DNA of 64,000 bases, from positions 777,662 through 841,661 of the forward strand of contig NZ_FOAF01000001.1 in assembly GCF_900109575.1 (NCBI RefSeq), in the 5' to 3' direction. Under the pieces are notes generated by a model. It searched no databases. It was not told where the DNA came from and saw nothing but the letters and a program-made list of their open reading frames with translations. The DNA is from Olivibacter domesticus (GTDB lineage Bacteria; Bacteroidota; Bacteroidia; Sphingobacteriales; Sphingobacteriaceae). Of the stretch, positions 17,844 to 40,396 are shown piece after piece. Both the position numbers and the translations under genes were made by a program. Each line of letters begins with the position of its first letter. Position 1 is the stretch's first letter.

Positions 17844-17881
17844 GTATCGCCAATAATGTAAATGGAAAAATTGTTAGCTGC

Positions 17882-21039: not shown

Positions 21040-21597
21040 CTAATAAAAGTTTTTAAGGTACCCGCGAAATATTTTAACCGCTTTACCAAGTTGATTTTTG
21101 ACTGTATTGGGGCTGATCCCCATTTCGGAAGCAACTTCCAGACGACTTTTTTCCTCAAAGTAGACCAGCTTGAATACCTTGGCACTCATGGGAGGAACTT
21201 TGTCCATGGCCGCATTCAGGGCTAAATTAAGTTCATTGTTTTCAAGACGATTGGCAGGTAACTGATAGGCTTCCGGCCACAGCAGGTATTCGTGCTCCCG
21301 CTTCTGTAGCCGCTCTTTAGATTTCAATTTATTTAGGCAACGATTATAGAAAGCCCGATAGAGATAGCTGTCGAGTGCTTCGGCATGTTCGATTCGCAGA
21401 AACAGGCGTTTCTCCCAAAAATCCACGAAAAAATCCTGCACCAGGTCCTTAGCTTCTTCATCTGCCTCCCTGCCCAGTATAGACACGGCGAGTCCCTTAA
21501 GCCATCCCCTGCTTTTATTGTAAATCGCGCTGACCGCTTCCAAATCGCCGGACTTAAGCGCATTGAATAATTCCTGATCCACTTTGTTATGGGACAT
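21040..21597 (-). CDS. ECF RNA polymerase sigma-70 factor
   Basis: The 185-residue protein has region 2 (LFNALKSGDLEAVSAIYNKS, AKDLVQDFFVDFWEKR) and region 4 (VPPMSAKVFKLVYFEEKSRL, ASEMGISPNTVKNQLGKAV). It is transcribed divergently from the SusC operon across a 540-bp spacer and together with the following FecR gene forms a regulatory pair for that operon. Confidence 0.94.
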   Translation of the reverse strand: MSHNKVDQELFNALKSGDLEAVSAIYNKSRGWLKGLAVSILGREADEEAKDLVQDFFVDFWEKRLFLRIEHAEALDSYLYRAFYNRCLNKLKSKERLQKREHEYLLWPEAYQLPANRLENNELNLALNAAMDKVPPMSAKVFKLVYFEEKSRLEVASEMGISPNTVKNQLGKAVKIFRGYLKNFY

Positions 21598-22137: not shown

Positions 22138-25100
22138 ATGTTTTCACTTATACCAAAATTAATGTGTATGGCACAACTTAAACCTACCTGGGGCTACGTC
22201 ATTTACAAGCCTCTCCTCCTAATTATTTTCCTATGCCTCTGCAGTCTCAATCCCATACAGGCCAAAAGCAGGCAGGGTAAGAATGTCACCCTTTCGGGTG
22301 TTCAGATTTCCCTTAAAGAAATCTTCACGGCCATCCGAAAACAGACTGGCATGACCGTTATGTACAGCAATTCGGAGCTTAACATTAACCTGAAAGAAAG
22401 ACTAAATGTAAATTTCAAAAACACACCGATAGAGGACGTGATGGATTTTATTCTGCGAAATAAAAATTACACCTACTCCATAGTCGATGACGGCGTTTTG
22501 ATACTAAAAAAAACAAAGGAACCGGCGGCACCTAAAAGTAGGACAGATACCAGCTCAACCGTGTTCGCTCTTCAGGGAAAGGTCACTGATGCGGCGGGAA
22601 CTCCTTTACCTGGAGTTACCGTGTTAATAAAAGGTACCCAACTAGGCTCAACAACAGATGGTAGTGGCATTTTCTCTCTTCCTGGAGTTGCAAACGGAAT
22701 GACTTTACAGGTAAGAAATATCGGGTTTATCACGCGAGAAATTCCTATAACTGGAAAATCAATACAAGTTATTCTACAGATTGATGTGCAAAGTCTGGAT
22801 GAAACGGTAGTCATTGCATATGGTACTACCACTCAAAGATTGAGCACGGGAAATATCAGTTCTGTAAAAGCCAAGGATATCGAAAAGCAACCAATAAACA
22901 ACCCACTATTAGCGCTGCAGGGACGTGTACCCGGCGTATTTATTGAGCAGGCTACTGGGCTACCCGGAAGCGGAGTACGGGTACGTATACAAGGGCAAAA
23001 TAGCATGGGAAATGGGAATGATCCTTTATATGTAATTGATGGAGTTCCTTTTACGAGTCAATTGTTACCGGGAATAAATCCAGAATTACTTGGAAGTTCT
23101 GGCAACTTCAACGTAATGGGGAGCCCATTTAGTTTCATTAACCCCTCCGATATAGAAAGTATTGACGTTTTAAAAGACGCTGATGCTACAGCTATCTATG
23201 GCTCACGTGCGGCAAATGGGGCAATACTGATAACCACAAAAAAAGGTAAATCAGGAAAAACACAAGTGGCAATTAATGTTCAAAATGGATGGGGAGAAAA
23301 TACCAGAAAAATGAACCTCTTGAACACTGAGCAATATCTTAATATGCGACATGAAGCCTTAAAAAATGATGGAATTACATCACCTGGCACTGGGGATTAT
23401 GATCTTAATGGTTTATGGGATAGTACAAAATATACAGATTGGCAAAAAGAACTGATAGGGGGAACAGCACAATATAGAGATCTTAAAGCTTCTATTTCAG
23501 GAGGTAATGATAATACGCAATTTCTTATCGGAACAGGATATCATAAAGAAACAACAGTATTCCCCGGTAATTTCAACGATGAGCGAGGCTCGGTTCACTT
23601 TAATGTTAACCATCTATCCAATAACAAAAAGCTGAGTATACAACTAATCGGGAATTATTTGGTAGATGGAAATAGATTACCAACAATTGATTTAACCTCA
23701 GCGGCCTTGCGCCTCGCCCCTACGGCTCCTCAGTTGCTAACTGAACAAGGTGAGTTAAACTGGATGCCCGGTCCTTCGGGAAATAGTACCTTTGGCCTAA
23801 ATCCTTTACAATACATTGAAACAAAATATAAGAACACAACTTCCAACTTACTGAGTAACCTTCAAATTGGTTATCATTTAAACAAAAGCCTTGAAATAAA
23901 AAGTAGTTTCGGCTATAACTCACTTACCACAGATGAAACCTCGATTTATCCTTCTACCTCATTCATGCCAGAGCAAAGGCAATTCAATCCAAGAGCAGCG
24001 AGATATGGTTCAAACAAAATAAACTCATGGATAATTGAACCACAAATAAACTACAAGAGAAATATATTTGAGGGCGCTTTAGAGGTCTTATTGGGAGGCA
24101 CATTACAAAAAAACAATAATACAAGTACACAATTAGCAGGAAGTGGTTATAACAGCGACTTGTTGTTAGAAAATATACAAGCAGCGAGTGCAATCAATGT
24201 TCTTTCACCTATAAACACCACGTATAAATACGCTGCCATTTTTGGAAGAATAAACTACAACTGGCAGAATAGATATATAATAAATCTGACAGCTCGACGG
24301 GATGGAAGTTCGAGGTTTGGTCCGGAAAATAAATGGCATACATTTGGATCTTTAGGAGCTGCATGGATCTTCACTGAAGAACCATTCTTCTTTCAAAATC
24401 AAAAAATTCTAACTTATGGAAAAATTCGAGCCAGTTATGGTACTACTGGTAGTGATCAAGTTGGCGACTACAGATATCTCAGTCTTTATAGTAATTATTC
24501 TGTTATATCTCCATACCAAGGGATAAGTTCTCTAATCCCAGATAGACTCAGCAACCCATATCTTCAATGGGAGGAAACAAAGAAGATACAATTAGGTGTC
24601 GATATTGGTTTGTTAAATGATAAAATACTACTATCTAGCACATACTTCCTAAACCGATCATCTAATCAACTGTTGAGTTACAACTTACCATTTACAACAG
24701 GATTTACTTCTATTGATAATAATTTTCCTGCAACTGTCCAAAATACCGGTATAGAATTATCGCTCAATATGACAAATTTAGCCAATTCTAAATTCACTTG
24801 GAATAGCGGATTTAACATTACAATACCAAACAACAAACTAATAAATTTTCCAAATATAGAACAGTCTCCATATTACACAAGTTATTTTGTTGGAAAACCA
24901 GTTAGGTTGACGCCGGTATATATATTTCGCGGGGTCAATTCAGAAACTGGCATATTTCAGTTTTTAGATAAAGATGGGAAATTAACATCATCACCAGATT
25001 TAGCTACTGATAGAAGTGAAGTTGTACAGCTTGATCCAAAATTTTACGGTGGATTCCAAAACTCCTTTAATTATAAAGGACTTCAATTAGATATCCTGTT

Positions 25101-25524
25101 TCAATTTGTAAAACAGAATGGTCAAAATTATCAATTTGGTCATATACGACAAGGTGCATTTAATAGTGGATATAGTAATCAGCCAATCGACGTACTTAAT
25201 AGATGGATGTCTCCTGGAGACATAGCTGCTTATCAAAAATTTAGTGCTGGAACATCAGAAATTAGAGCAGCATACACTGCCGCAAGAAGTTCTGATGTTA
25301 TGTATTCAGATGCTTCATATATAAGGTTGAAAAACATCTCTGTTTCATATGAAATTCCTAGTAATTGGAAGAGGCAATTGTCATTAACCAATCTCAAAAT
25401 ATATGCCCAGGGTCAAAACATAATGACGTTCACAAAATACTTTGGCTTAGATCCTGAAAGTAAAAGTTCTACTTCATTACCTCCTTTAAGGGTCCTCACT
25501 ATAGGTATACAAGCAACATTATAA
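22138..25524 (+). CDS. SusC/RagA-type TonB-dependent receptor
   Basis: The 1128-residue protein has a signal sequence (ending NPIQA near residue 42), an STN domain (about 50-120, GVQISLKEIFTAIRKQTGMT), a carboxypeptidase-regulatory-like domain (ALQGKVTDAAGTPLPGVTVL), a TonB box region (VVIAYGTTTQRLSTG), a plug (LLALQGRVPGVFIEQATGLP, VLKDADATAIYGSRAANGAI) and a beta-barrel. It would import a ligand captured by the SusD protein, and the STN domain indicates signalling to FecR. Its 3' two-thirds are visibly more AT-rich than the first third. The SusD gene follows after 28 bp. Confidence 0.96.
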   Translation: MFSLIPKLMCMAQLKPTWGYVIYKPLLLIIFLCLCSLNPIQAKSRQGKNVTLSGVQISLKEIFTAIRKQTGMTVMYSNSELNINLKERLNVNFKNTPIEDVMDFILRNKNYTYSIVDDGVLILKKTKEPAAPKSRTDTSSTVFALQGKVTDAAGTPLPGVTVLIKGTQLGSTTDGSGIFSLPGVANGMTLQVRNIGFITREIPITGKSIQVILQIDVQSLDETVVIAYGTTTQRLSTGNISSVKAKDIEKQPINNPLLALQGRVPGVFIEQATGLPGSGVRVRIQGQNSMGNGNDPLYVIDGVPFTSQLLPGINPELLGSSGNFNVMGSPFSFINPSDIESIDVLKDADATAIYGSRAANGAILITTKKGKSGKTQVAINVQNGWGENTRKMNLLNTEQYLNMRHEALKNDGITSPGTGDYDLNGLWDSTKYTDWQKELIGGTAQYRDLKASISGGNDNTQFLIGTGYHKETTVFPGNFNDERGSVHFNVNHLSNNKKLSIQLIGNYLVDGNRLPTIDLTSAALRLAPTAPQLLTEQGELNWMPGPSGNSTFGLNPLQYIETKYKNTTSNLLSNLQIGYHLNKSLEIKSSFGYNSLTTDETSIYPSTSFMPEQRQFNPRAARYGSNKINSWIIEPQINYKRNIFEGALEVLLGGTLQKNNNTSTQLAGSGYNSDLLLENIQAASAINVLSPINTTYKYAAIFGRINYNWQNRYIINLTARRDGSSRFGPENKWHTFGSLGAAWIFTEEPFFFQNQKILTYGKIRASYGTTGSDQVGDYRYLSLYSNYSVISPYQGISSLIPDRLSNPYLQWEETKKIQLGVDIGLLNDKILLSSTYFLNRSSNQLLSYNLPFTTGFTSIDNNFPATVQNTGIELSLNMTNLANSKFTWNSGFNITIPNNKLINFPNIEQSPYYTSYFVGKPVRLTPVYIFRGVNSETGIFQFLDKDGKLTSSPDLATDRSEVVQLDPKFYGGFQNSFNYKGLQLDILFQFVKQNGQNYQFGHIRQGAFNSGYSNQPIDVLNRWMSPGDIAAYQKFSAGTSEIRAAYTAARSSDVMYSDASYIRLKNISVSYEIPSNWKRQLSLTNLKIYAQGQNIMTFTKYFGLDPESKSSTSLPPLRVLTIGIQATL

Positions 25525-25552: not shown

Positions 25553-27085
25553 ATGACACAACTAAATAAAGTATATAGAAGATACAAGGCAAAGCTTCTA
25601 AAATATATCTCATCCAGCAAACAGGCGTACAGTTTTTGGACACTTTTTAATTATTATTCGGGAAGTGATTTATACATAATAGTCTCATTTCTATTTCTAT
25701 CAATTATAATATCATCCTGCGACAAGCTGATAGAAGTTAACCCGCCCGTAACAAATATAAACTCGGAAAATGTATTTAATAGTGACGATTCTGCTATTGG
25801 AGCGGTAACAGGTATATACGCTAAGTTAAGCAGTGAAAGTTTTCATTCCAGGGATTTAACAAGTACTTCATTCATACTAGGGCTCACCTCAGATGAACTT
25901 ACATTAGATAATAGTATTAGTGACGAAACATATTTGAGTTATTATCAAAATTCACTAACAAGTGCAATATTTTCTGTAGGAAATCAGGATTTATGGAGTA
26001 AAATTTATCCAATAATTTACAAGGCAAATGCAGCAATCGAAGGACTTGAGAAATCATCACTTCTAACCTCTAAAGTAAAAGATCAACTAATGGGAGAAGT
26101 AAAATTTATAAGAGCCTTTTGTTACTTTTATTTAGTAAATCTATATGGAGACGTGCCGAAGATTCTTTCAACTACTTACACACAAAATACCAATATACCT
26201 AGAACACTTAAAAGTGATATTTGGGCACAAATTATTCAAGATTTAATAGATGCAAAATCACTTATGGTTGACGACTATCTCGACGCCTCTTTAACTTTTC
26301 CATCAACAGAAAGAGTAAGGCCGAGCAAATTTGCAGCAACAGCATTGTTAGCCAGATCCTATTTATATATGACAGAATGGCAAAAGGCTGATGCGGAAGC
26401 AAGTGAAATAATTTCGCATAGCGAACGCTTTACCTTATCGCCATTAAGTGACGTTTTTCTAGCCAATAGCTCAGAAGCGATTTGGCAATTGCAACCAGTA
26501 TCGTCGCATTCAACAGAAGATGGAAGATTCTTTATAATTCCAGAAACTGGCCCTAGTGGAGATTGGCCTGTCTATCTAAACCGATCATTATTAAATAGTA
26601 TTGAATCAATTGACCAGAGAGAAATTCTATGGATCAATAAAATTGTTGCTAATGGACAATCATACTATTATCCTTCTAAATACAAAAACAACCAAACCTA
26701 TGATGGACCAATTTCCGAATACTCAATGGTGCTTAGACTAGGAGAACAAATATTGATACGCGCCGAGGCTAGAGCACACGAAGGTAATTTGAGTGGTGCA
26801 ATTGCAGATTTAAATAATATTCGTTCACGGGCGGGTCTTAAATCAACTAATGCGACCACACAAGATGAGCTTATTAATGCAATTCTGCAAGAGCGAAGGA
26901 TAGAATTGTTCTCTGAATGGGGCCATCGTTGGCTTGATCTAAAAAGAACAAATACAATTAATACTGTAATGGAATTTGAGACTGCAAGAAAAGGCGGGTT
27001 ATGGAGTTCACATAGCCAGTTGTTTCCAATTTCTGCATCTGAAATTATATCTAATCCTAGCCTTATACAAAACGATGGCTATTGA
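25553..27085 (+). CDS. SusD/RagB-type nutrient-binding outer-membrane lipoprotein
   Basis: The 510-residue protein has a lipobox LSIIISSC at about residue 57, followed by DKLIEVNPPV. The preceding N-terminus is long for a lipoprotein signal and the true start may be internal. SusD features are AIGAVTGIYAKLSS near the N-terminus, LMGEVKFIRAFCYFYLVNLYGDVP, and the C-terminal LNNIRSRAGLKSTNATTQDE and ILQERRIELFSEWGHRWLDL. It pairs with the upstream SusC. The protein ends a little earlier than usual (SNPSLIQNDGY). Confidence 0.95.
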   Translation: MTQLNKVYRRYKAKLLKYISSSKQAYSFWTLFNYYSGSDLYIIVSFLFLSIIISSCDKLIEVNPPVTNINSENVFNSDDSAIGAVTGIYAKLSSESFHSRDLTSTSFILGLTSDELTLDNSISDETYLSYYQNSLTSAIFSVGNQDLWSKIYPIIYKANAAIEGLEKSSLLTSKVKDQLMGEVKFIRAFCYFYLVNLYGDVPKILSTTYTQNTNIPRTLKSDIWAQIIQDLIDAKSLMVDDYLDASLTFPSTERVRPSKFAATALLARSYLYMTEWQKADAEASEIISHSERFTLSPLSDVFLANSSEAIWQLQPVSSHSTEDGRFFIIPETGPSGDWPVYLNRSLLNSIESIDQREILWINKIVANGQSYYYPSKYKNNQTYDGPISEYSMVLRLGEQILIRAEARAHEGNLSGAIADLNNIRSRAGLKSTNATTQDELINAILQERRIELFSEWGHRWLDLKRTNTINTVMEFETARKGGLWSSHSQLFPISASEIISNPSLIQNDGY

Positions 27086-27298: not shown

Positions 27299-29998
27299 AT
27301 GGAAATTGCTCTCAAAAACAAATCACTGATTGGAGAATTTATCACAAGCATAACATTTATGTTTTTGCTCTCACCCGTAGGATACGCTCAACAACAATGG
27401 AAAATGCAGGCTTTACAGATGCAATCTAAATGGTCTAAAGAAGTTGACATTGAACATCCGCACAACGTTTACCCAAGACCCCAGATGATTAGATCTGACT
27501 GGTATAATTTGAATGGTCTTTGGGACTATACAATTACTAAATTCAGTTCACCATTACCAACAAATTACTCAGGGAAAGTCCTTGTTCCTTATCCTATTGA
27601 ATCGGCTTTATCCGGAGTAAAGAAATCGTTATTACCAGATGAAATTCTTTGGTATAGACAGAGTTTTAATATGTCGAAGATCAAATTCAATAAACGACTA
27701 TTAATACATTTTGGTGCTGTAGATTATAAAGCCACAGTTTATATCAACAATAAAGAAGTAGGAAGTCACGAGGGAGGGTATACAAATTTTTCGTTTGATA
27801 TCACAAACTATATAATGGAAGGTGAAAATGAAATAATTGTAAAAGTACTTGACCCAACTGATGCAGGGGTAGGGCCGCATGGCAAACAGGTGTTAAGACC
27901 CGAAAACATATATTATACAGCCACAAGTGGGATTTGGCAATCTGTATGGATGGAATTTATACCAGAAATATCAATTTCATCGCTCAAGATTAAACCTGAC
28001 GTGGATAATAGCAAACTTTACCTGCAAGTGAACCTTATGGGAAAAGCTAATGACTATAGCTTGGAGGCAATAGCAAAAGCCTCTGGTAAACTAGTCTGTA
28101 AGCATAGTTCAGGTACATCAAGGATAACAACAAATAAAGATACCAGTTATTCTTCCAGCTTTAGTTTACCTATCAAAAATATGCATTTATGGTCTCCTAA
28201 TGATCCCTATCTATACGATCTTAAAATTCGGCTACTATACAAGGGAGAATTAGTGGATGAAGTAGAATCTTATTTCGGTATGCGAAAAGTTGAAATTAAG
28301 AAGGATTCGTCGGGTATAGACAGAATATTTTTGAATAACACATACACTTTTAATCTTGGAACATTGGACCAAGGATATTGGCCGGAGGGATTATATACAG
28401 CGCCTACAGATGAAGCACTTGCATATGACATCAAAATCATCAAAGAGATGGGTTTTAATACCATTAGAAAACATATCAAAGTTGAACCCGCTAGATGGTA
28501 TTACTATGCAGATTACTATGGTATACTTGTTTGGCAGGACTTTGTAAATCCGAATCAAGGCTTGCCTCCCGGAGCAAAACAAGCTTTTGAAAAGCAAACT
28601 AAAGAAACAATCGATCAGCTATTTAATTATCCTTGTATCACAACCTGGGTATTATTCAACGAGCGATGGGGAGCTTACGATCAGCAGCGTCTTACTGAGT
28701 GGATTAAGAAAAATGATTCCACTCGTTTAATCAACGGCCATTCGGGAGAGATGCTGTATGTCAATGAACAATTAAGGCAGCCTTCAGAAAATCCATACGC
28801 ATCAAGCGATATGGCTGATGTTCATTCTTATCCTAATCCAATGAATGCACCATATCTACCAAATAAAGCACGGGTGCTAGGAGAATTTGGAGGTATAGGC
28901 GTACCTGTTCCTGGACACCAATGGGATGACCTGACTGGCTGGGGTTATATACAAGCAACACCAAAGGAATTATTGAGTAAATATGAACATTTTATAAAAC
29001 TTTTAGGAACCCTTGAGAAAAAAGGTCTAACCGCTTCCATTTATACGCAACCCTTCGATGTCGAAGGTGAAGAAAATGGCTTACTAACATATGACAGATC
29101 AATTATTAAAATCCCAATAAAACGCCTTCGCCAGTTACACGCAACCCTGACTAATTTGGACACTTCATCAATAGATATTTCAAAATTAGTTTTGCCTAAG
29201 ACCTTAGATATCAACGATACAGATGAACGATTTCCACACCTTCTTCAAGAATTCAAAAGTGGTCGACAAGATTCGTGTTTTCTAAGAAGGTTGGTCTTAA
29301 TGGCTCTGAGGTTGAAGGATCAGGAGAATGCAACATTAGTCGGCAACCAATATTTAAATTCATTAACCAATGTATTTCTAAAAGACAATTTAAACTTTAT
29401 TCAACATATAACATCGACATCTCGTGATTCTGGTTTTAAAATGTTTTCAACTGACTCAATAAAAATCTCTAAGATAATTGGAAGGGCATCAGTTATCTCA
29501 ACGCTTAAAAAAGTGATAATATCAGAAGAAATTTCCCCCTTTTTAAATAATTTGTCAGATAGTACAAGAGAAATAATAAATCATAATATACAACAAAAAT
29601 ATAGCGAATTTGGAAGACAATTATTAAACGAAGAACTACTGGGACATTATTGGAACGTAAAGGACTGGGATAATTTCTCAAAATACTACGTAATATATTT
29701 TGGCGAATCAAAGCACAAAAGCAAATATAATATTAATAATGCATCATGGCAGTTATTCCAACATTGTAATGATCATAGGGTTCTACATTTCGCTGCAGAA
29801 ATTGCAAAATATAATATAGAAAGATTTGATAAAAGCCCAAACTCTTTAGATACATATGCGAACATTCTTTATAAAATAGGTAAATCACAGGAAGCACTTA
29901 AATGGCAAGAAAAAGCGGTAGTGGCTTCAAATAATAACAAGAAAATTTTAAACAATTACAATAAAATGAAAAAAGGTGAGCCTACTTGGTCTAAATAG
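27299..29998 (+). CDS. Glycoside hydrolase family 2 enzyme with C-terminal helical extension
   Basis: The 899-residue secreted protein (signal peptide ending VGYAQ, about residue 31) has the GH2 jelly-roll (RPQMIRSDWYNLNGLWDY, then the sugar-binding domain with FGAVDYKATVYINNKEVG), an immunoglobulin-like domain and a TIM barrel. Catalytic candidates are the acid/base Glu in TWVLFNERWG (about 454) and the nucleophile Glu in VLGEFGG (about 527), as in beta-galactosidases and beta-glucuronidases. From about 650 to the end there is a helical segment not expected in GH2, ending in a TPR-like unit (EALKWQEKAVVASNN). It probably works on the glycan imported by the SusCD pair. Confidence 0.9.
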   Translation: MEIALKNKSLIGEFITSITFMFLLSPVGYAQQQWKMQALQMQSKWSKEVDIEHPHNVYPRPQMIRSDWYNLNGLWDYTITKFSSPLPTNYSGKVLVPYPIESALSGVKKSLLPDEILWYRQSFNMSKIKFNKRLLIHFGAVDYKATVYINNKEVGSHEGGYTNFSFDITNYIMEGENEIIVKVLDPTDAGVGPHGKQVLRPENIYYTATSGIWQSVWMEFIPEISISSLKIKPDVDNSKLYLQVNLMGKANDYSLEAIAKASGKLVCKHSSGTSRITTNKDTSYSSSFSLPIKNMHLWSPNDPYLYDLKIRLLYKGELVDEVESYFGMRKVEIKKDSSGIDRIFLNNTYTFNLGTLDQGYWPEGLYTAPTDEALAYDIKIIKEMGFNTIRKHIKVEPARWYYYADYYGILVWQDFVNPNQGLPPGAKQAFEKQTKETIDQLFNYPCITTWVLFNERWGAYDQQRLTEWIKKNDSTRLINGHSGEMLYVNEQLRQPSENPYASSDMADVHSYPNPMNAPYLPNKARVLGEFGGIGVPVPGHQWDDLTGWGYIQATPKELLSKYEHFIKLLGTLEKKGLTASIYTQPFDVEGEENGLLTYDRSIIKIPIKRLRQLHATLTNLDTSSIDISKLVLPKTLDINDTDERFPHLLQEFKSGRQDSCFLRRLVLMALRLKDQENATLVGNQYLNSLTNVFLKDNLNFIQHITSTSRDSGFKMFSTDSIKISKIIGRASVISTLKKVIISEEISPFLNNLSDSTREIINHNIQQKYSEFGRQLLNEELLGHYWNVKDWDNFSKYYVIYFGESKHKSKYNINNASWQLFQHCNDHRVLHFAAEIAKYNIERFDKSPNSLDTYANILYKIGKSQEALKWQEKAVVASNNNKKILNNYNKMKKGEPTWSK

Positions 29999-30104: not shown

Positions 30105-32780
30105 ATGAATGATTTAATCAAAAAATTGGCAATCCTCATTTGCATTATTTTATTGGCAGATCAGGTAAATGCGCAAAAACCGAGTTTAAATGTTAAAACT
30201 GATTACGCGGAATGGCCAACTTTGGGATTAGCCGCACTAAGTAACGACGGAAAATTCGCTGCATTTACCTATCAAAATGTTCCTATCAATAGTCAAACTT
30301 TAATAATCGTTTCAACAGATTCAAATTGGAAATTAGAAATACCTAATGGATCTGATATATTTACTACAAGGATAACAGAAGATAGCAAAACTGTTATTTT
30401 TACTTTGCCACATGACAGTATGGGCATTGTTTCACTTGGTAAGTCTGCAATAAAATATTTACATGGAATATCCTCCTTCCAGGTTCCTGAAAATGGAGAT
30501 GGTAAATGGATTGCTTATCAAAAGAATGATTCTACAAAAACTTTAGTCATAGAAAATCTTCATAGTGGCCAAAACTTCTTTTATTTAGGTGTATTGAATT
30601 ATAAATTTTATGATATGGGCAATACCTTGATCGTTACAAAACAGATTAAGCGTGATGATGGTATTATACAGCGTATCAGTCATATAAATCTTAAAACAAG
30701 AAAGGAAATAATAATTTGGGAGGGCACAGAAATAGCTGGTACATATTTCGATGAAAGACATAAACAATTATCGTTCCTTGCAATCCATTCAACGAATCCT
30801 GAACCAAATATATGGCTTTGGAAAATTGGCGACAAAAATGCCGAAATGTTAACAAAATGTGATATTAGCTTAGGTGGAGAAAATTTTAAAATAAAAAGAA
30901 TTGCGAATTTTTCAAATGATGGGCGCCGATTGTTTCTTATCCTAAGAAAGGAAATCAGAAATGAAAAAAAACTTGACAACATTGCTCAGTTAAATGTTTG
31001 GAACTACAAAGATTTAAAACTACAGACACAACAATTAGAAGAAATAAAAGAAGGCATTTTTGATCAGGAGTTTTTAGCTACAATAAATTTAAAAGATGAT
31101 AAAATCACGCAAATAACGAGAGATAATGAAACTTGCCTTGCAATCCATAATGAAACAGCATTTATCCAAAACACATATGGAGATATTGGTTTTGGCGAAA
31201 GAAAATGGCGTAAAAAAAAGGAGAACAATTTAACCCTTTTATCTCTAGTTGACGGAAGGAAACAGTTTGTACCAAATGGAATTATATCTCCTAATGGAAC
31301 TTATATAATATTCTATGATGATGCAAAAGATATCTATAAATACTATAACATCTCAAAAAAAAATACTCGAACAATTCCAAGGAGTCTTAAATCTTCAGGA
31401 TGGAAATTTGGACCAAGGGATGTTTATTATTCTGACCGAGGTATTGCTGGTTGGTTAAGCGATTCCCTTGTGTTAATTTATGATCGTTTTGATATATGGA
31501 AGATTGATTTAGCAGGAAAAACATCAGCAATAAATATAACGAATGGTTATGGAGCGCGAAATGAAATTATATTTAATTTGGTAAGCCAAAATACAAACCA
31601 ACAACTTAATCCCGCTGATACTAATATTCTCCTATTAGCTTTTGATCCGAATAAAAAAAATAATGGAGTTTTTTATGCCAACCTAATGACTAAAAGAGAT
31701 CCAAAGCTCCTTCATTTTGGTCAATTTTTATACGATTTTCCAGGAATAATTGGGGGAAGACAACCTTTGAAAGCGAAAAAAGCAGAAACTTATATTCTTT
31801 GTCAAAGCACTGCTCATGAAAGCCCTAATTACTTTTGTACCTCAGACTTCAAAAACTATAAGAAATTAAGTGATTTATATCCTGAAAAACGGTTCAATTG
31901 GATAACATCTGAACTAATAACTTGGAAAATGAAAGATGGAACCTCAAGAAATGGAATATTGTACAAGCCAGAAAATTTCGACTCGAGTCAAAAGTATCCA
32001 GTTATCATAAACTATTATGAACGAAATTCAGACCGTTTGCATTCATTTATTAAACCAGCTAGCCTATCTAACGGAGGGCAAATCAATATCCCTATGTTTG
32101 CAAGTAATGGTTATTTGGTATTTACTCCAGACATATATTACAACATTGGATCACCAGGAGAAAGTGCCTTAGTTTCGATTGAAACAGGAGTTAAAAGCCT
32201 CTTCAATTTACCATACATTGATACAAATAGATTAGGCCTACAAGGTTTTAGTTTTGGAGGATTTGAAACAAATTACATCGTTACACATAGTAACATTTTC
32301 TCTGCTGCTTGTTCTGCCGCAGGAATATCTAACATGATAAGCCTTTATGGTTCTCTTAGGGAGGGTGGATCATTTCAGGGAATATGTGAGGAAGGACAAA
32401 TTAGAATGGGAAAAACTCTCTGGGAATCTCCAGAAAAATATTTAGAGAACTCTCCCATAATGAGAGTTGATAAACTTACTACACCTATATTAATTATGCA
32501 TAATGTGAAGGATGATGCAGTACCATTTTCACAATCAGTTGAATTTTTTACTGCATTAAGAAGATTGAATAAAAAATCCTGGCTTTTATCTTATGATGAT
32601 GGAAAACATGGTTTGAGAGGAAAATCCGCCATTGATTTTAATATTCGAATGTTTCAGTTTTTTGATCATTATTTAAAAGACGAAGCAGCGCCCAAATGGA
32701 TGACAGAAGGCATTCCTGCAATACGAAAAGGCACTGACCTTGGGTTAGAAATTGACTCGAACTATAAAAGTAATAAGTAA
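30105..32780 (+). CDS. Prolyl oligopeptidase family (S9) serine peptidase, secreted
   Basis: The 891-residue protein has a signal peptide (MNDLIKKLAILICIILLADQ, ending VNAQ), an N-terminal beta-propeller-like half and a C-terminal alpha/beta hydrolase. The nucleophile Ser is in LQGFSFGGFET (about residue 717), the Asp in NVKDDAVPF (about 802) and the His in DDGKHGLRG (about 835). It cleaves peptides, often after Pro, in the periplasm. The TTG at 30075 is an alternative start, but the ATG at 30105 places the signal peptide correctly. It follows the GH2 gene by about 105 bp and ends facing the peptide cluster. Confidence 0.92.
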   Translation: MNDLIKKLAILICIILLADQVNAQKPSLNVKTDYAEWPTLGLAALSNDGKFAAFTYQNVPINSQTLIIVSTDSNWKLEIPNGSDIFTTRITEDSKTVIFTLPHDSMGIVSLGKSAIKYLHGISSFQVPENGDGKWIAYQKNDSTKTLVIENLHSGQNFFYLGVLNYKFYDMGNTLIVTKQIKRDDGIIQRISHINLKTRKEIIIWEGTEIAGTYFDERHKQLSFLAIHSTNPEPNIWLWKIGDKNAEMLTKCDISLGGENFKIKRIANFSNDGRRLFLILRKEIRNEKKLDNIAQLNVWNYKDLKLQTQQLEEIKEGIFDQEFLATINLKDDKITQITRDNETCLAIHNETAFIQNTYGDIGFGERKWRKKKENNLTLLSLVDGRKQFVPNGIISPNGTYIIFYDDAKDIYKYYNISKKNTRTIPRSLKSSGWKFGPRDVYYSDRGIAGWLSDSLVLIYDRFDIWKIDLAGKTSAINITNGYGARNEIIFNLVSQNTNQQLNPADTNILLLAFDPNKKNNGVFYANLMTKRDPKLLHFGQFLYDFPGIIGGRQPLKAKKAETYILCQSTAHESPNYFCTSDFKNYKKLSDLYPEKRFNWITSELITWKMKDGTSRNGILYKPENFDSSQKYPVIINYYERNSDRLHSFIKPASLSNGGQINIPMFASNGYLVFTPDIYYNIGSPGESALVSIETGVKSLFNLPYIDTNRLGLQGFSFGGFETNYIVTHSNIFSAACSAAGISNMISLYGSLREGGSFQGICEEGQIRMGKTLWESPEKYLENSPIMRVDKLTTPILIMHNVKDDAVPFSQSVEFFTALRRLNKKSWLLSYDDGKHGLRGKSAIDFNIRMFQFFDHYLKDEAAPKWMTEGIPAIRKGTDLGLEIDSNYKSNK

Positions 32781-32834
32781 TTTTCATAAAAGAACTACTG
32801 TAATATTCAACAAAGATATCTAACTTATTATAGT

Positions 32835-32874
32835 GTTTCATTGAAAGAGGTACTCAAACCCCCTTCAATGAAAC
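32835..32874. terminator. Bidirectional hairpin between the S9 peptidase and the peptide cluster
   Basis: GTTTCATTGAA (32835-32845) and TTCAATGAAAC (32864-32874) are a perfect 11-bp inverted repeat with an 18-base loop. It separates the converging + and - strand transcripts. Confidence 0.6.
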
Positions 32875-32894
32875 ATATATTTGTTTTAAGTTCA

Positions 32895-33140
32895 TCAAAG
32901 ACTTGCAGTTACGCAGATTACCGGACAGGTAGTTGTAAGGTGTGTAGTGTGAAGCCTTGTTGTTGTAGCAGGCTCTATCAAGCAGTTAGCTGTTCTCAAC
33001 GCTCTAACAGTTGCAACATTACAAATGTTATTAGCACCAGGTTTAAAAAATGTCTGCTCTACTCTTAGTTTATAACTATATACGACTCCCAATCCTGTAA
33101 AGAATGCCATTATTGACAAAAGTATTCTAATTTTTTTCAT
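32895..33140 (-). CDS. Secreted small Cys-containing peptide C (DUF6520-like, candidate precursor)
   Basis: The 81-residue protein starts MKKIRILLSI. It has a Sec signal with probable cleavage after VVYS (residue 22) and a conserved mature start YKLRVEQTFF. Its Cys residues are 40, 53, 72 and 76. The C-terminus TTTCPVICVTASL aligns with those of the two neighbours. The Thr/Ser-rich stretch ahead of Cys72 would suit dehydration and thioether formation, but the Sec signal points to periplasmic disulfides instead. It is the last of three tandem copies in a - strand run behind a lanthionine synthetase. The frame begins earlier at 33161, but the MKKIRI start matches its paralogs. Confidence 0.75.
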   Translation of the reverse strand: MKKIRILLSIMAFFTGLGVVYSYKLRVEQTFFKPGANNICNVATVRALRTANCLIEPATTTRLHTTHLTTTCPVICVTASL

Positions 33141-33224
33141 ACAGAAATTTTTAAGATGCAATAAATTAAGCTCCTAACTTTACTTCCTTTTAAAAGACTT
33201 TTAAGATCTATCTTAGTCATTAAT

Positions 33225-33464
33225 CTAAAGAGCAGCAGTTAATCGAATAAGAGGACAGGGGCCCGTAGTTGCTGCAACCGAAAGCCGGCGCTGTATAATA
33301 TTAGTATCAGTTGTTGGGTACATCATCTTGGTGGTAGCGACATTACATTGTCCATTTGCGTTTTCTTTATAATAGACGTATTCCACTCGAACTTTGTACG
33401 CTAATGTTGTCCCAATAATACCAAAAATCCCTAAAGTAGTTAATAGAATCTTTGCACTTTTCAT
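33225..33464 (-). CDS. Secreted small Cys-containing peptide B (DUF6520-like, candidate precursor)
   Basis: The 79-residue protein starts MKSAKILLTTLGIFG. The signal peptide ends TLA (residue 22) and the mature part starts YKVRVEYVYYKENANGQCNV. Its two Cys (40 and 70) align with Cys40 and Cys71 of peptide A. The C-terminus is PCPLIRLTAAL. The 5' leader is nearly the same as that of peptide A (GCTTTTTT..AAAA.AGCACC before the ATG), so both were duplicated with their upstream region. An in-frame ATG at 33494 is rejected for that reason. Confidence 0.78.
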   Translation of the reverse strand: MKSAKILLTTLGIFGIIGTTLAYKVRVEYVYYKENANGQCNVATTKMMYPTTDTNIIQRRLSVAATTGPCPLIRLTAAL

Positions 33465-33547
33465 GGTAATAGGTGCTCTTTTGAAAAAAGCCAACTTTAA
33501 AAGTTAAGAATTCGAATTTCAATAAATAAGCATCCACCTTATTCCAA

Positions 33548-33574
33548 TAGGGCTAACCAATATGGTTAGCCCTA
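33548..33574. terminator. Perfect 12-bp hairpin between peptides A and B
   Basis: TAGGGCTAACCA and TGGTTAGCCCTA are separated by three bases (ATA). There is no long T-run on either strand. It could be a terminator, a processing site or an RNA stabiliser that sets the relative amounts of the tandem peptides. Confidence 0.5.
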
Positions 33575-33602
33575 AGATTTGAGTTGTTATAACAAAATTC
33601 TA

Positions 33603-33845
33603 CTAAAGGGAAGATGTAACTGTTATAACTGGACAGGTCGTAGTTAACTGAGTGGTTGCAAGACTTGTTGTAATTTGATTGGGTGAAGGAGGAGCAAGTG
33701 TCAAATTCCTCTGAGTTTCTACATTACAAATTCCTTGTGCGTTTGATTTGTAGAAGGTATTCTCAGTACGAACTTTAAATGCCAGAGCTGCACTTACAAA
33801 ACTAACAACACCAAGAGCTGTCAATAAAATTTTTGCACTTTTCAT
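33603..33845 (-). CDS. Secreted small Cys-containing peptide A (DUF6520-like, candidate precursor)
   Basis: The 80-residue protein starts MKSAKILLTALGVVSFVSAA. The signal peptide ends ALA (residue 22), followed by FKVRTENTFYKSNAQGICNV. It has exactly two Cys (40 and 71). The stretch between residues 57 and 71 (ITTSLATTQLTTTC) holds eight Thr/Ser before the Cys, and the C-terminus is TVTSSL. It is the first peptide after the TlpA-like gene, 136 bp away. Possible roles are a secreted peptide stabilised by a disulfide, or the substrate of the nearby lanthionine synthetase. Confidence 0.8.
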   Translation of the reverse strand: MKSAKILLTALGVVSFVSAALAFKVRTENTFYKSNAQGICNVETQRNLTLAPPSPNQITTSLATTQLTTTCPVITVTSSL

Positions 33846-33981
33846 AATAATGGTGCTTTTTTTAAAAAAAAGCTAAACTTTTAATTAAATAAATGCCTAC
33901 TCTGTTCAAATGGTTTTCGGCTTCCCCATTTTTTGACCGCACATACTTGCAAGGCAGAAACGGTCCGTTGCGCAACATTTT

Positions 33982-34548
33982 TTATTTTGTTAGGTTCAAA
34001 ATTTGTTCACTTGAAATATTACCAATAAATACATTTTGAAGCTTTTGATCTTTACGGTAAATTGATATAAATGGAACAGCATCCACGTTAAAGTAATTTT
34101 TAAAAGTCTTTTGATAATCGACTAGGAAAATGACATTTTCTTTCATTTTATTAAATCCGAATTCTTTAGCTATTGAATCGTATTTATCTCCCCCAGATAT
34201 CAATATGTAAAATTGAATACCTTTCAAGCGTTCGAGATTCTCCCTGACTTCGTTTAATTGCTTACTGCAGAATGGGCAGCCAGATTTGACATACAAAAAC
34301 ACAATCGGCTTATTAAAAATAGATGAGCCAGTACTTATTTTCGTAGTACTTTCAACAGAAAGGAAATTAAAAATTGGCATCTCCTTCCCTTCTAGGCCAG
34401 TAATTACAGGTTGATTTATGTAAGACTTATTCTTTAAAATAGTAGCATCTAGTAAACTACTGAGGCAGAAGTATAATCCTAGCGAAATACCTATAAAAAT
34501 AATTGGCCTAAAAATATATTTCGCTCTCATATTCAATCTATATGACAT
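33982..34548 (-). CDS. Membrane-anchored thioredoxin-like protein with CPFC motif (TlpA-like)
   Basis: The 188-residue protein has an N-terminal transmembrane anchor (about 12-32, IFRPIIFIGISLGLYFCLS) and a periplasmic thioredoxin fold: YVKSGCPFCSKQLNEVREN carries the redox pair Cys91-Cys94, and DAVPFISIY carries the cis-Pro. It would reduce or form disulfides in the periplasm. The start is 14 bp from the stop of the FAD/GT gene, so it is in the same operon. The three two- to four-Cys peptides immediately downstream are plausible clients. Confidence 0.85.
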   Translation of the reverse strand: MSYRLNMRAKYIFRPIIFIGISLGLYFCLSSLLDATILKNKSYINQPVITGLEGKEMPIFNFLSVESTTKISTGSSIFNKPIVFLYVKSGCPFCSKQLNEVRENLERLKGIQFYILISGGDKYDSIAKEFGFNKMKENVIFLVDYQKTFKNYFNVDAVPFISIYRKDQKLQNVFIGNISSEQILNLTK

Positions 34549-34562
34549 TGGAAAAATATTTT

Positions 34563-37500
34563 TTATTGAACATTTAACTTCTTCAAATCTATAAATGAAC
34601 TCTCTAAGTCATTGATAGTACTACTCCCCTCGCTTTTCTTTGCTTCCTTTATCATGTGATCGATGATTAGAAAGTTTATGGACAAAAGGCATATAATCGG
34701 AAATAGTTGAAACCTGAGAGCAATAGGTGATGCAAATACACTGAATCCAAAGTTGACAAACCATAATGCCATGGTCAATAAAATCACTTTCCACAGCGCG
34801 GGTCTATGCTGATACCCCTTTAAGATCACGAAACTGATAAAGCCGAATAAAAATATAACGTTAACTGCACCAGCCAATATTGGATAATAGTTAAGAATAC
34901 TAACTTTGGAATCTTTAAAATGGCTTTTAATTTTATTGGTCTTGTATCCGAAAAACACCTGTGCAATCTGATGCACACTGTCAACACCTGTATTATACTT
35001 CTCCAAAAACTCAACTGGAGGGGCATAATATTTCAAGGCATTGGGAATTATATAATATTTCACGAATACTCCTGGGTATTCCTGGATTATGTAAGCACCA
35101 TACTTTGCATACAACGGCGCTACAGTTGACCATTTCTTTACCTCCCCTGCCAATGAATCTTTCTTAAAACGGATCGCCTTGTATTTCTGAAGCGGTGATA
35201 TGGCATCCCACATATATACCGTGCTAGCCACCATTAATTCCTGAGGATGCTTCCGAGTATCCCTTGTTGTATCAAAATAAGTCCTAACCATTTCATCCAG
35301 TTGGCGGAACCTCTTGGGTACTGGTTTAACGTTCACACTATCAACATACCGATATGCGTACATGGCATTGTTTGCCATTTGCCAACCGGTAAATGGGGAA
35401 AATTGCTTCTTCCCTGAAACTTCCAGATATTTATTACTTGTAAATTGGACAAATGCAGATATCATTATAATTCCCAATCCAAATCCAGCAAGTTTGAGCA
35501 TAAGCCGCTGCCTCGATAACAGGATTACTAGGGCTCCAATAACAGGATAATAAAGGGCATTGTATCGGACAGTGAATGCCAAAAACAGGACTACGGCATT
35601 GAGAACGATCAATTTTGCTGATGGCCTATACAAGATCCAAATTAACTGCGTAAACCAGATCAAGCTTAAAGACAGAAAGAATGAATCACTTGAAACATAG
35701 TTCGCTAGGTATAGTAAAACGGGATTGAACAAAGTAACACTGAATAGTAGTATTTTGGTAAGCCTAGCAGGTTTGAAAAAATAAAATAATGAGAATACAA
35801 AAGCCAAAGAGCTTGCCTGTAGAAGGAAATATTGAAAGCCTACTAATAAGGTGTCAGACTTTGTAAAAACACTGAAAAGTCTTAGGAACTTTGAATAGCC
35901 TATTGGGTACGTGTTAATATCAAAATTATGATAGGCAGTTTCCAGGTACACATAGGAATCCCCATTGATAAAACTTGCAAAGGGATATAGAAATTTAAAT
36001 ATCACGAACTGCAGAATAATTCCGAGGATACCTACTCTTAAAAACCATGTATAAGATGGATTCCTAAAAATATAATCCTTTAAGCTCAGCTTTTCTTCAT
36101 TTAAAATAGTGGGCTCCGGAGTAAATACTGATCCTTTTGCACCGGATTCGGATTTCTCTTCATGGTAATCCTGCTCAGTATTGATCGCCCAGATATTCTC
36201 CTTAGCAATAGATCCAGCTATAATATTATCGACAGCTACCATGGCGGTCAGCATCGAATGGTCAGAATTATTGTATTTATGCATCCCGTTCCGTCCTACA
36301 AGGAAAAGATTTTTAAAGCTATCAATGAAATTTCTTATTACATCAAAACGGTTATAAGTACCGAAATACGCCGGATAAGTCTTCTCCATTCTGAGCACCG
36401 TGGAATCCATCACATTAGCTTCTGCAGCCAGCCCTATTTTTACTAGCTCGTTTATCGCCAGTGCTCTGATATCCTCATCCTTCATATTCCAGAAGGAATC
36501 GTTAGAGTTGCAGAAAAACTCCATGCCCACCCATACCGTATCCGGGTCCTTTACCATATAAGGGCTCCAGTTATTAAAAAGTTGTAACCTTCCCACCTTT
36601 ACATCCTTCTCCTGAATATAGATCCAGGTGTCCTTCAGCTCAAGTGCTTTCCATTCGCCAGTTTTCTTGTCCTGAAAGGACAATTTCTTTAACAAAATAC
36701 CTACTGTAATAAAATCCCGGTATTGGAGGCCCGCCGCAACTTCCTTCACATCTTCAGGTATGGTGCCGTCTAGGCCTCCTATCAGTTCCTGGACTGGCAT
36801 TGTCGAAAAGAAATAATCGCCTTCCAGGTAACTGGTTTCACCGGTTATATTGTTGATTGCTGCTATAGCAGTTACTTGATCCCCAGAATCTGACGTGTAT
36901 ATCCTTTTTACATCATGATGCATCATAATCTTACCACCCATGGCCTCTACCTGCCTTGCCACTTCCTCCCACAATTGACCTGGACCAAATTTTGGGTACA
37001 GAAACTGTTCTATCAGGCTGGTCTCGGTATCCTTCTGAGTGATGTCACCCTTAGTTTTATTTTTCCGTTTTGTAGCCGTTTGAATCGCATGCTGGATAGC
37101 TTTGCTGATAGAGACACCCTTAATGCGTTGGGCTCCCCACTCTGCAGATATCTCATGGCAAGGAATGCCCCATACTTTCTCAGTATAATCCCTGAAAAAC
37201 AACATATATAAAACCTTCCCAAACCTGTTAACCATAAAATCTTCCAGATTACTTTCTGGCTTACGGGGAAACAGCTGCGCCTTCAGATAGGAGAACATGA
37301 TTAAAATCGTCGTCCAAAACCCCAATTTGGTAAGGGTATCAATCGATAGCTGGATGGGATAGGTAAAGAATTTTCTCAGAAAATAAATGCGTGATAACCG
37401 TTGCCGAACAAGCATAACTTTGTCATTGTCCTCTCCCGCCCTTTCATCTGACTTAATGGAACCGGTAATTATATTACGTGATTTGTTCTGATAACTGATA

Positions 37501-37754
37501 TTGAGTAGATCCTGGCTATCCGATTCAACCGGTAAAATTTTAAACCACCAGTCCATTACCCGATCTGACTTGGAAAAGAAACGATGCCCGCCAATGTCGA
37601 TACGGTTACCTTTATAATTGACAGTTTTTGATATCCCGCCAATATCACCGCTCTTCTCCAATATAATGGGGGTAACATCCGTTCTTTTTAATAATTCATA
37701 TGCTGCGGTAAGACCGGCGGGACCGGCCCCAATAATGATGGCTGTTTTCTTCAT
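34563..37754 (-). CDS. FAD-dependent oxidoreductase fused to a GT-C-like membrane glycosyltransferase
   Basis: The 1063-residue protein begins with a Rossmann FAD motif ([19 protein letters not shown]) and the flavin-amine-oxidase/UDP-galactopyranose-mutase-type region ([20 protein letters not shown], then [13 protein letters not shown]) to about residue 545. After a short linker come about 10 transmembrane helices with a GT-C-like first loop ([15 protein letters not shown]) resembling PMT/ArnT-type enzymes that use lipid-linked sugars. Each half is known as a separate protein; the fusion is unusual. It is 38 bp downstream of the lanthionine synthetase and 14 bp upstream of the TlpA-like gene. 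It may add or modify a sugar. Confidence 0.85.
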
Positions 37755-37792
37755 AACAGACTACTTTTGAGGGAAAGGAATTATTTTAATTT

Positions 37793-40396
37793 TCAAGAAT
37801 CACCCAACACGGGAAATGATAGTTTATCTGGTTTAAGCCACCTGGCTAGAAAATAAGTTATGCCTATATTTCCAGTCATAAAATCCGGTGTTGCTCTGAA
37901 ATGATCCGTTAGCCAGTAATATGTATTTTCTTCCGATTTTTTCCTCAGATGATAAAGGGAACCTGCAATCCAATCTGCCCTTGTCTTCCATTCTTCACTT
38001 TCCAGAACTTGGTAGGCCTCTAAATATACCTCACCTAATCCGGCAATACCCGACGCCTGACTTGTGTTCCGATATATGACCTCCGATTTATGACTTTTCA
38101 GGGCGCTCTCACAAATCTGTCTGTAAACCGGCTTTCTGAAAATCTGGTATGCCTTTAAAAAGGTCAGTGCGATTCCGGCAATACCGTTATTAAACCAGGG
38201 ATCAACCTCTTTTCTTTTTGAATCGGTATACCAGAAAATACTTTGGCCCCTTTTGCCCGACTGCCTTTGGAGCCATTCCAGCCCACGTGTGGCCGCTGTC
38301 AACGCTTTCTCTTCTGCATAAAATCTGCCGAAGCAAAGAAGGAAATAGACGATTCCACTTACACCGGTTACAATTCCGGTCTCTATTCTTCTATCGACTG
38401 CTGTTTCCCAGCTTCCATCCCTGGACTGATGGGTTAACAGCTGGTCCACGATATTACCAAGTTGCTGTTTTAAAAAATTTGACGGTAGAAAACTTGTACA
38501 TTGTAACAACCCGATACCTGCGCCGGCAATTCCCGCAGAAAGGTTTAAATTCTTTGAACTTTCATGAAAACATGCTTCCATCAGGGCTAGGTTTCCATCG
38601 TTCTTTTCAAAATATCCGCAGGATATTCCTGATGCAAGCAAGACCCCTAGCCCACCCTTGCCGTTATACAGACCGGGAGACATCTCCTGCAACCTGCCAA
38701 AACCTTCCCGCTGCAAATATTCCAAGTTTGCACCTGCACGTTGCTTTAAAATCTCCGAACATTGGTAGCCTGCTTCCTTTAGTCGGAACAATCCATAAAA
38801 TACTCCCGCCGTACCATTGTACAAGTCTGGTAGGTGCCCATATAATGCATTTTGTTCGCTGACCTTGGAAAACCACAACCCATGTTTATCGGTTAGGTGG
38901 ATGCTCGATAGTGAGGCAATGGTCAAATCAACGAGAGAATTTGCTTCCTTACGATTGAGGACCTGACTTTCAGAGATTATTTCAGGTCTGGTTTTATCGT
39001 GAGTATGCTCCTGTATATTTTTCAACCTCTCCTGTACCGTTTCCAGCTCCGGGCGAAGCGCTGGATCAGATTTCATACAGGCACTGATTAAATCTGCTAT
39101 ATCCCGGTCTTTAATAAAGTGATACAAGCTATCGCATAAATCCTTGCCGGAAGACGCCTCGAAATCCTTTGGTAACAGTCCTGTGAAAATCACAATCATC
39201 AGCCCCCCTAGGCCGTAAATATCCTCCTTGATCGTAGGCTTGGAACATTTTTGCTGCTCAGGGGACATATATCCCATCGTTCCTAATGAAAAAGGAGGAT
39301 AGGGCTCATTAGTTATAAGAGAGTAACACAGCTCAAGGTCAATCATCTTTACGGTGCCGTTCTTTAGGATTAGAAAATTGGATGCTGTTATATCCCTATG
39401 AACTATATTATAACTGTGTAGAACAGAGATGATACGTATGATCTTCATGAGATAATCGGTGAGCAACCTGCGAGTTTCAGCGTTCAGACCTGTCCAGTTG
39501 GAACCATCGTAGATTATTTGCACTTTGTCTTCCAGTGCAACACTATCAATAAATTCCATAACGAAATAGGCATCGCCTTCGTCGTAAAAAAAATCTATAA
39601 TATTGGGCAGCGGAAGGAACGATCCTAATTCCTGGTGCAGCTTCAGCTGCCATTTCAACCGGTCCTGTATATCTCTTCCGTGCTCGTCTGAACACATATA
39701 CTGTTTTCCCTCCTTGATTATGCAAGGACTGAAACTAAGCCAAGATTTGACGTATACGGCCCTATATACGTTTCCTCGGAAATCGTCTTTTATCAGGTTT
39801 GCAAATTTGATACGCTTTTTATATAATCGCCTTGCGGAAATATCAGAAATCTTAAGGATAGGGCTAAATGGCCAGGTCAAACCACTGGAGGTATTCAGCA
39901 TACGGGGATTTTTCTTGCAGGTCTCGTAGAGTTTAACGATATAATCTTCCCCATCAATATATTCATGAAAATGTCCGTAGCTTGTGAAGACCGGGCCAGA
40001 TAGCCTAATACCATCGAGTATGGCGGGGCCTTTATAATCGGCCGTAACAGCAATTAGAACGTTAGCCAATTCCAGGGCTTCGTTATCGCCTTTAGGATAT
40101 ATACAGACTACCCTATTTAGGTATTCAGGCCCGTATTTACCATCCAATAGCCCCTCTGCGGCACGCATATCTCTGGCAATCCTAAAATATACTCCGGCCT
40201 TCTTCAGCACAGGAATTATCTTTTCGACTAATGCTGAAACCTGTGTTAGAATAACAGAAACATACAATTTCCAGCCATGGCCGGTCAGCGGCTCACCGAT
40301 TTCTAAGTAAAAACTGTCCAATTTATAATCCAGTCCATTTTCTTTAATGATCTCGGTAAAATCAGCGGTCATCGTGGCAACAACTTCGTTATGCAT
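37793..40396 (-). CDS. Class III-type lanthionine synthetase (LanKC-like): lyase, kinase and zinc-less cyclase
   Basis: The 867-residue protein has the LanKC order. Residues 1-160 resemble the lyase domain (GHGWKLYVSVIL, LNRVVCIYPKGD, GPAILDGIRLSGPVFTSYGHF). Residues 200-460 are a Ser/Thr kinase (HRDITASNF at 333, MIDLE at 351, LGTMGYMSPEQ). Residues 490-855 are a LanC-type alpha/alpha toroid with seven GxxG repeats. The zinc ligands of LanC are replaced: DPWFNNGIAG where WCYG is usual, and NTSQASGIAG where CHG is usual, as in class III enzymes. Such enzymes phosphorylate and eliminate Ser/Thr and form (labionin or lanthionine) rings on a precursor peptide. The likely operon continues with the FAD/GT and TlpA genes. 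Confidence 0.9.
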   Translation of the reverse strand: MHNEVVATMTADFTEIIKENGLDYKLDSFYLEIGEPLTGHGWKLYVSVILTQVSALVEKIIPVLKKAGVYFRIARDMRAAEGLLDGKYGPEYLNRVVCIYPKGDNEALELANVLIAVTADYKGPAILDGIRLSGPVFTSYGHFHEYIDGEDYIVKLYETCKKNPRMLNTSSGLTWPFSPILKISDISARRLYKKRIKFANLIKDDFRGNVYRAVYVKSWLSFSPCIIKEGKQYMCSDEHGRDIQDRLKWQLKLHQELGSFLPLPNIIDFFYDEGDAYFVMEFIDSVALEDKVQIIYDGSNWTGLNAETRRLLTDYLMKIIRIISVLHSYNIVHRDITASNFLILKNGTVKMIDLELCYSLITNEPYPPFSLGTMGYMSPEQQKCSKPTIKEDIYGLGGLMIVIFTGLLPKDFEASSGKDLCDSLYHFIKDRDIADLISACMKSDPALRPELETVQERLKNIQEHTHDKTRPEIISESQVLNRKEANSLVDLTIASLSSIHLTDKHGLWFSKVSEQNALYGHLPDLYNGTAGVFYGLFRLKEAGYQCSEILKQRAGANLEYLQREGFGRLQEMSPGLYNGKGGLGVLLASGISCGYFEKNDGNLALMEACFHESSKNLNLSAGIAGAGIGLLQCTSFLPSNFLKQQLGNIVDQLLTHQSRDGSWETAVDRRIETGIVTGVSGIVYFLLCFGRFYAEEKALTAATRGLEWLQRQSGKRGQSIFWYTDSKRKEVDPWFNNGIAGIALTFLKAYQIFRKPVYRQICESALKSHKSEVIYRNTSQASGIAGLGEVYLEAYQVLESEEWKTRADWIAGSLYHLRKKSEENTYYWLTDHFRATPDFMTGNIGITYFLARWLKPDKLSFPVLGDS

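Follow-up and report, generated by a model that had tools for sequence, protein, structure and literature searches.

Organisation of the locus

This analysis concerns a gene cluster of Olivibacter domesticus that lies in a 64,000-nucleotide stretch of contig NZ_FOAF01000001.1 (assembly GCF_900109575.1, positions 777,662 to 841,661; hereafter the window) and encodes a protein resembling the class III lanthionine synthetases (LanKC), denoted P0001, together with three small secreted peptides. An initial reading of the DNA (the original prediction) had described six genes in one direction and proposed a pathway for ribosomally synthesised and post-translationally modified peptides (RiPPs), with the peptides as substrates of the LanKC-type enzyme. 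All six open reading frames (ORFs) are present on the minus strand at 32895–40396, and the first three are as tightly spaced as described, 38 and 14 bp apart. The unit to evaluate is larger than this; it consists of two operons that converge, one for the peptides and the enzyme, the other for an outer-membrane transporter, a glycosidase and a peptidase (Table 1).

P0002 had been described as a fusion of a flavin adenine dinucleotide (FAD)-dependent enzyme with a glycosyltransferase (GT). The FAD part is secure (PRK07208, 3.8e-253), whereas the polytopic half has no Pfam match, and its resemblance to GT-C glycosyltransferases is judged by eye. The TlpA-like label given to P0003 is supported by its thioredoxin-like CPFC motif; in related loci the slot of P0003 is held by MauE. 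The three peptides start at ATG codons at 33845, 33464 and 33140, the longer TTG starts of two of the listed peptide ORFs being probably unused. The hairpin between peptides 1 and 2 is a possible attenuator or mRNA stabiliser.

Table 1. Features of the two convergent operons, with positions in the window
Feature	Position	Strand	Basis or remark
P0001, LanKC-like protein (867 residues)	37793..40396	-	Pfam/NCBIfam matches; residue comparison
P0002 (1063 residues), PRK07208-type FAD oxidoreductase fused to GT-C-like membrane half	34563..37754	-	profile match
P0003 (188 residues), TlpA-like thioredoxin, membrane-anchored, CPFC motif	33982..34548	-	
Secreted peptide 1 (80 residues), two Cys, Thr-rich tail	33603..33845	-	
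Secreted peptide 2 (79 residues), two Cys	33225..33464	-	
Secreted peptide 3 (81 residues), four Cys	32895..33140	-	
Hairpin between peptides 1 and 2	33530..33600	-	z -3.2
Strong hairpin at operon end, between operon and convergent S9 gene	32820..32896	-	z -6.3
Exported S9 prolyl-oligopeptidase-type peptidase, convergent with peptides	30105..32780	+	same place in congener
Glycoside hydrolase family 2 (GH2)-type protein, convergent operon	27299..29998	+	54% identity in congener
SusD/RagB, convergent operon	25553..27085	+	
SusC/RagA TonB-dependent transporter, convergent operon	22138..25524	+	61% identity in congener

Domains and active sites of P0001

Pfam matches uphold the lyase-kinase-cyclase order described for P0001, with RamC_N at residues 34–147 (8.8e-16), Pkinase at 265–454 (5e-21) and LANC_like at 523–862 (6e-27). 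In this order, and in homology over the full length, the protein resembles the class III and class IV synthetases (LanKC, for example ThurKC, PDB 8sao; LanL, for example VenL), and its closest solved relatives are the LanKC-type enzymes 8car and 8sao (E 3.2e-27 for 8car, full-length). It falls below the NCBIfam equivalog cut-offs, scoring 313 bits against 650 for NF038150 and 199 against 575 for NF038151. An AlphaFold2 model of P0001 from the single sequence gave a mean predicted local distance difference test score (pLDDT) of 33, and a scan of the genome collection with P0001 returned generic kinases only. A role in defence was not adopted, as PADLOC kinase models such as PD-T4-6 (4e-24) match P0001 over the kinase domain only.

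The lyase site was compared with a reference set of eight plasmid-derived proteins (four annotated LanKC, one LanL and three other homologues), motifs being assigned to residues from the sequence alignment. The GWKxH, FK, GK and YRYG-type motifs are kept in 8/8 reference proteins. P0001 retains only the lysine of the first motif (K43), with Y45 replacing His, R72 and R95 each replacing Lys, and S139 replacing the Arg equivalent to ThurKC R163, and does not carry the full set of phospho-lyase residues represented by VenL K51 and H53 and by ThurKC K65 and R163; the ThurKC substitutions K65A and R163A abolish dehydration (PMC10604976), and VenL K51 and H53 align with K104 and H106 of SpvC (PMC2843593). 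Among the other family members (35 first aligned) the first lysine is lost in 35/35 and the arginine kept in one, the lysine of GK being kept. The loss of most lyase catalytic and phosphate-binding residues thus sets P0001 apart from LanKC and LanL.

The kinase core, by comparison, is one of the likenesses to LanKC and LanL: Lys228, HRD335, Asn340, Asp353 and Glu355 are invariant (36/36 proteins), with DxE replacing DFG. In the LanC domain of P0001, DPWFNNG and QASG stand in place of WCxG and CHG. The zinc ligands of class IV enzymes are therefore missing, as they are in every LanC-bearing member of the family, whereas LanL and a homologue from Haematobacter possess them. A LanC domain without zinc ligands is also a feature of class III enzymes, and because these are metal-independent, zinc loss alone would not exclude cyclisation. 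By this residue test P0001 appears to be LanKC-derived and not a competent LanKC, and the family looks like one of active kinases with a spent lyase.

The Haematobacter protein, a LanC-family protein encoded on Haematobacter massiliensis plasmid pOT1-4 (WP_035712020.1), is a full-length homologue of P0001 (28% identity, E 7e-86) and differs in retaining all of the lyase and zinc-ligand motifs; no similar peptide module is annotated around the Haematobacter and Salipiger homologues. An alphaproteobacterial plasmid (L219, 7965–10703) encodes a full-length homologue of P0001 with lyase and zinc motifs intact; no recognised precursor peptide is annotated nearby, and this protein is an orphan LanL-like enzyme. 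LanKC and LanL come mostly from Actinobacteria and Firmicutes (Walker et al. 2020; PMC7268733). VenL-like lyase domains were noted in sphingobacteria in a 2014 survey (PMC4159009).

The secreted peptides

The three tandem peptides of about 80 residues are related, as had been proposed, their mature parts being alike beyond 2000 shuffles in every pair. Each begins with a stretch that, by eye and by hydropathy, resembles a signal sequence, and has two conserved cysteines about 30 residues apart and a tail that is Thr-rich and basic. The conserved Cys-Pro motif is present, but not at the very end of the peptide where it had been placed; it sits 9–10 residues before the C-terminus.

A leader motif of the LLxLQ/LELQL type (PMC10604976) was not found in the three window peptides, which bear Sec signals instead and in this differ from the partners of LanKC and LanL; class III precursors have a leader helix and no Sec signal. 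The absence of an ATP-binding cassette (ABC) exporter from the window locus is a further difference from those systems. The difficulty that the original prediction saw in the Sec signals is thus a real one, and the signals fit a picture in which a kinase has been added to otherwise ordinary exported peptides of the disulfide type.

In size, Sec signal and Cys-containing mature part the window peptides are like those of DUF6520 (PF20130), as they are, in most loci examined, in their place beside MauE and a convergent SusC-SusD pair. Membership of DUF6520 was rejected, two of the peptides scoring 13.5 and 13.6 bits (E about 0.1) against a Pfam cut-off of 25.4 and the third giving no match. Among 100 relatives, window-type peptides are restricted to the two genomes that bear the locus, the window's own genome (G000) and its congener G001.

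Enzyme-peptide pairing in related loci

RamC_N is present in 31/400 genomes of the window's GTDB family and in 3/395 genomes phylum-wide. The related set comprised 35 RamC_N-kinase loci and three added later, 38 in all. These kinases occur with LanC (~870 residues), alone (~450 residues) or with a beta-propeller (~815 residues), and this exchange of LanC for nothing or for a propeller is another departure from LanKC and LanL. Nearly all of the related loci have MauE and a Sec-signal peptide of 75–106 residues downstream on the same strand, and in most of them SusC, SusD and a thioredoxin-domain protein are convergent on the peptide.

Pairing was assessed by searching for a Sec-type ORF with a CX5-9C motif within 2 kb, with three control orientations. 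Such an ORF lies downstream on the same strand in 35/38 loci, and in 0/38 in each of the control orientations. Two further loci do have peptides, farther downstream in L131 and just past 2 kb in L164, which raises the count to 37/38 and leaves L178 as the true exception. Because the peptide is downstream in 37/38 loci, and none is found in the control orientations, we regard the link between enzyme and peptide as real; the expected co-occurrence of a synthetase-like gene with small Sec peptides in homologous loci is borne out. Of the proposal that the peptides are substrates of the enzyme, the pairing therefore stands, downstream and on the same strand only, whereas dehydration and cyclisation of the lanthipeptide kind are not supported.

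In the exceptional locus (L178, 7981–11055) a RamC_N-kinase in another family adjoins a stand-alone homologue of the GT-like half of P0002, to which the C-terminal half of P0002 is 34% identical over 545 residues; this adjacency supports a link between kinase and GT. Peptide, MauE and SusCD genes were not seen in the stretch of L178 that was read.

Outside the window genus, peptides beside kinases and MauE have exactly two mature cysteines, 6–9 apart. Peptides without a kinase have two cysteines (gap 6–8) in 22/29 cases, the remaining seven having four. Because presence of the enzyme makes no difference to this spacing, and a MauE or TlpA protein is encoded alongside, a disulfide rather than thioethers is indicated. 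The Ser+Thr content of peptides next to the LanC-bearing form is 0.247, versus 0.187 and 0.188 for those next to other kinases and next to none (p 7e-5 and 5e-6, with no correction for relatedness), a hint that the LanC-bearing form may act on Ser/Thr of the peptide.

The peptide/SusCD module without a kinase

We define the module as genes for a Sec-type Cys-peptide and a thiol-disulfide enzyme that converge on SusC-SusD accompanied by a thioredoxin or an S9 peptidase. It is found in the window and in most of about 70 mapped loci, with TlpA in place of MauE in the window. Loci without a kinase, recovered through DUF6520 or weak peptide-profile matches, contain MauE and peptide genes, SusD and SusC, and either a thioredoxin or an S9 peptidase, but no RamC_N, and RamC_N occurs in none of the genomes with a significant DUF6520 match (395-genome sample). 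DUF6520-like peptides with the same neighbours are mostly without any LanKC. The original prediction had named as its refutation a peptide family found mostly in genomes with no LanKC-like gene nearby; this describes the wider class of peptides, but not the window-type family.

G000 itself has four more peptide-MauE modules without a kinase (L257, L258, L259 and L261). Three of these have a convergent SusD-SusC pair and one stands beside a TlpA-type gene; some are accompanied by Crp/Fnr or propeller genes. A MauE tree implies about six changes in kinase presence, with the LanC-bearing form confined to one side of a single branch. In this tree, which has modest support, L201, L202 and L214 appear to have lost the kinase in part or in full inside a kinase clade. 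Because the module exists without the kinase, and kinase presence shifts on the MauE tree, the LanKC-like gene is best regarded as accessory.

RagAB and SusCD are peptide-uptake systems. The window's convergent operon resembles them in its SusC-SusD pair and exported peptidase, and differs in being coupled to genes that make a small exported peptide of its own, transport of which is putative. A description of the peptide/SusCD module was not found in the open-access literature, most subscription journals and preprints lying outside the search.

A mobile element in the window (2822–7748, plus strand) encodes a Toprim protein, a MobA-type relaxase and a YWFCY coupling protein. The same relaxase/coupling pair also adjoins the module, with or without the kinase, at L132, L140, L141, L146–L148, L155, L191, L203, L204, L210 and L215; as this is the case at a dozen other loci, peptide modules often move with mobile elements.

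Conservation in a congener

The whole locus is syntenic in G001, with the same gene order including the convergent operon, and with two peptides. Besides the values in Table 1 for SusC and the GH2-type protein, identities are 54% for SusD, 39% for the S9 peptidase, 32% for TlpA, 68% for the FAD/GT protein and 38% for LanKC. Among the 100 relatives, the FAD/GT fusion was seen in G000 and G001 only. A pair of extracytoplasmic function (ECF) sigma factor and FecR genes beyond SusC is also present in G001.

Proposed role of P0001 and alternative explanations

Because the dehydrating site is largely destroyed and the kinase is intact, P0001 is more likely to tag or control the peptides than to form lantibiotic rings. 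Under the reading we favour, with confidence that is evenly balanced, a degenerate LanKC has been retained as a kinase associated with the peptides and is an optional component of a secreted disulfide-peptide/SusCD module. P0001 would thus derive from a lanthionine synthetase and have been added to a widespread Bacteroidota module as an option. In the cytosol it would bind the precursor and, ahead of Sec export, phosphorylate serines and threonines in the Thr-rich region; oxidation of the peptide by the TlpA-like protein would follow, and the cognate SusCD would handle it at the outer membrane. P0002 may glycosylate the peptide, and once taken up it may be broken down by the GH2 and S9 enzymes of the convergent operon. 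Lanthionine formation would not be expected from the residues present. More tentatively, it is possible that a synthetase that lost its lyase has become a dedicated kinase, yielding secreted phosphopeptides, possibly glycosylated, that acquire a periplasmic disulfide and are recognised by the cognate SusCD.

Several observations weigh against this reading. Action of the kinase on the peptide is putative, and shared ancestry confounds the Ser/Thr enrichment. In sequence the window peptides and the CX7C peptides belong to separate families, and profile A2 misses the former; MauE, too, is absent from the window locus. P0001 retains one lyase lysine and a tyrosine, and the congener retains other residues of the site; some residual lyase activity of P0001 may therefore be conceivable.

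Alternatively, the LanKC-like protein could be a signalling or regulatory kinase that never touches the peptides, its target being a regulator or the secretion/oxidation machinery. In many relatives a Crp/Fnr-type regulator does lie ahead of the gene for the kinase or for MauE, although no Crp/Fnr gene adjoins the window locus; the third domain may be a beta-propeller in place of LanC, but the retained RamC_N and LanC folds handle peptides in known enzymes. The module can do without the kinase, yet the Ser/Thr enrichment of the peptides tracks the LanC-bearing form. On balance we consider such a role rather unlikely.

The loss of lyase residues essential in ThurKC makes it improbable that the locus is a functional lanthipeptide pathway like those of class III/IV, using an unusual Sec leader and with dehydration and Cys rings preceding Sec export, even though all three domains are in canonical order, the pairing with Thr/Ser/Cys peptides is conserved, class III cyclases are likewise without zinc ligands (PMC10604976) and a prolyl-oligopeptidase gene lies nearby, an arrangement shared with some class III clusters of Firmicutes (PMC7268733). 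The scores of P0001 are also far under the NCBIfam equivalog cut-offs, the locus has neither a lanthipeptide leader motif nor a dedicated ABC exporter, and the two-Cys spacing is equally conserved without any enzyme. With the lyase site degenerate, the LanC zinc ligands missing and no LLxLQ-type leader, the lanthipeptide-type modification first envisaged for the cluster is not sustained. A non-catalytic escort, whose domains would only bind the precursor and maintain it in an unfolded or reduced state up to Sec export, agrees with the degradation of two of the three active sites and with the binding of leader helices by LanKC enzymes (PMC10604976), but would have no need of kinase catalytic residues that are invariant in 36/36 proteins, and is more doubtful still.

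Taken as a peptide-associated kinase, P0001 offers a case, open to experimental test, in which an enzyme of RiPP biosynthesis has taken on the work of a peptide kinase. Genome miners would call such clusters class III/IV lanthipeptides, whereas the residue evidence suggests that most or all of the family are not. The locus also supplies specific secreted peptides and, with them, an outer-membrane transporter that is likely to be their cognate one, and the comparison reveals a common Bacteroidota module of a small exported disulfide-type peptide, MauE/TlpA, a cognate SusCD and a peptidase.

Other features of the window

Two adjacent ECF-sigma-like/FecR-like pairs lie between two SusC genes at 16716–21597 (minus strand), both of which pairs are retained in the congener. 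At 44094–45422 (minus strand), adjoining an AraC-type helix-turn-helix gene, is encoded a 442-residue protein without a Pfam match, which is 35% identical to one upstream of the congener's LanKC gene (L131, 7085–8305). The region 55753–61579 (plus strand) encodes a full-length Avs2 anti-phage protein (PADLOC Avs2, 2329 bits), followed by a gene for a protein of metallo-beta-lactamase fold that matches the LmuA/RTasMBL models.

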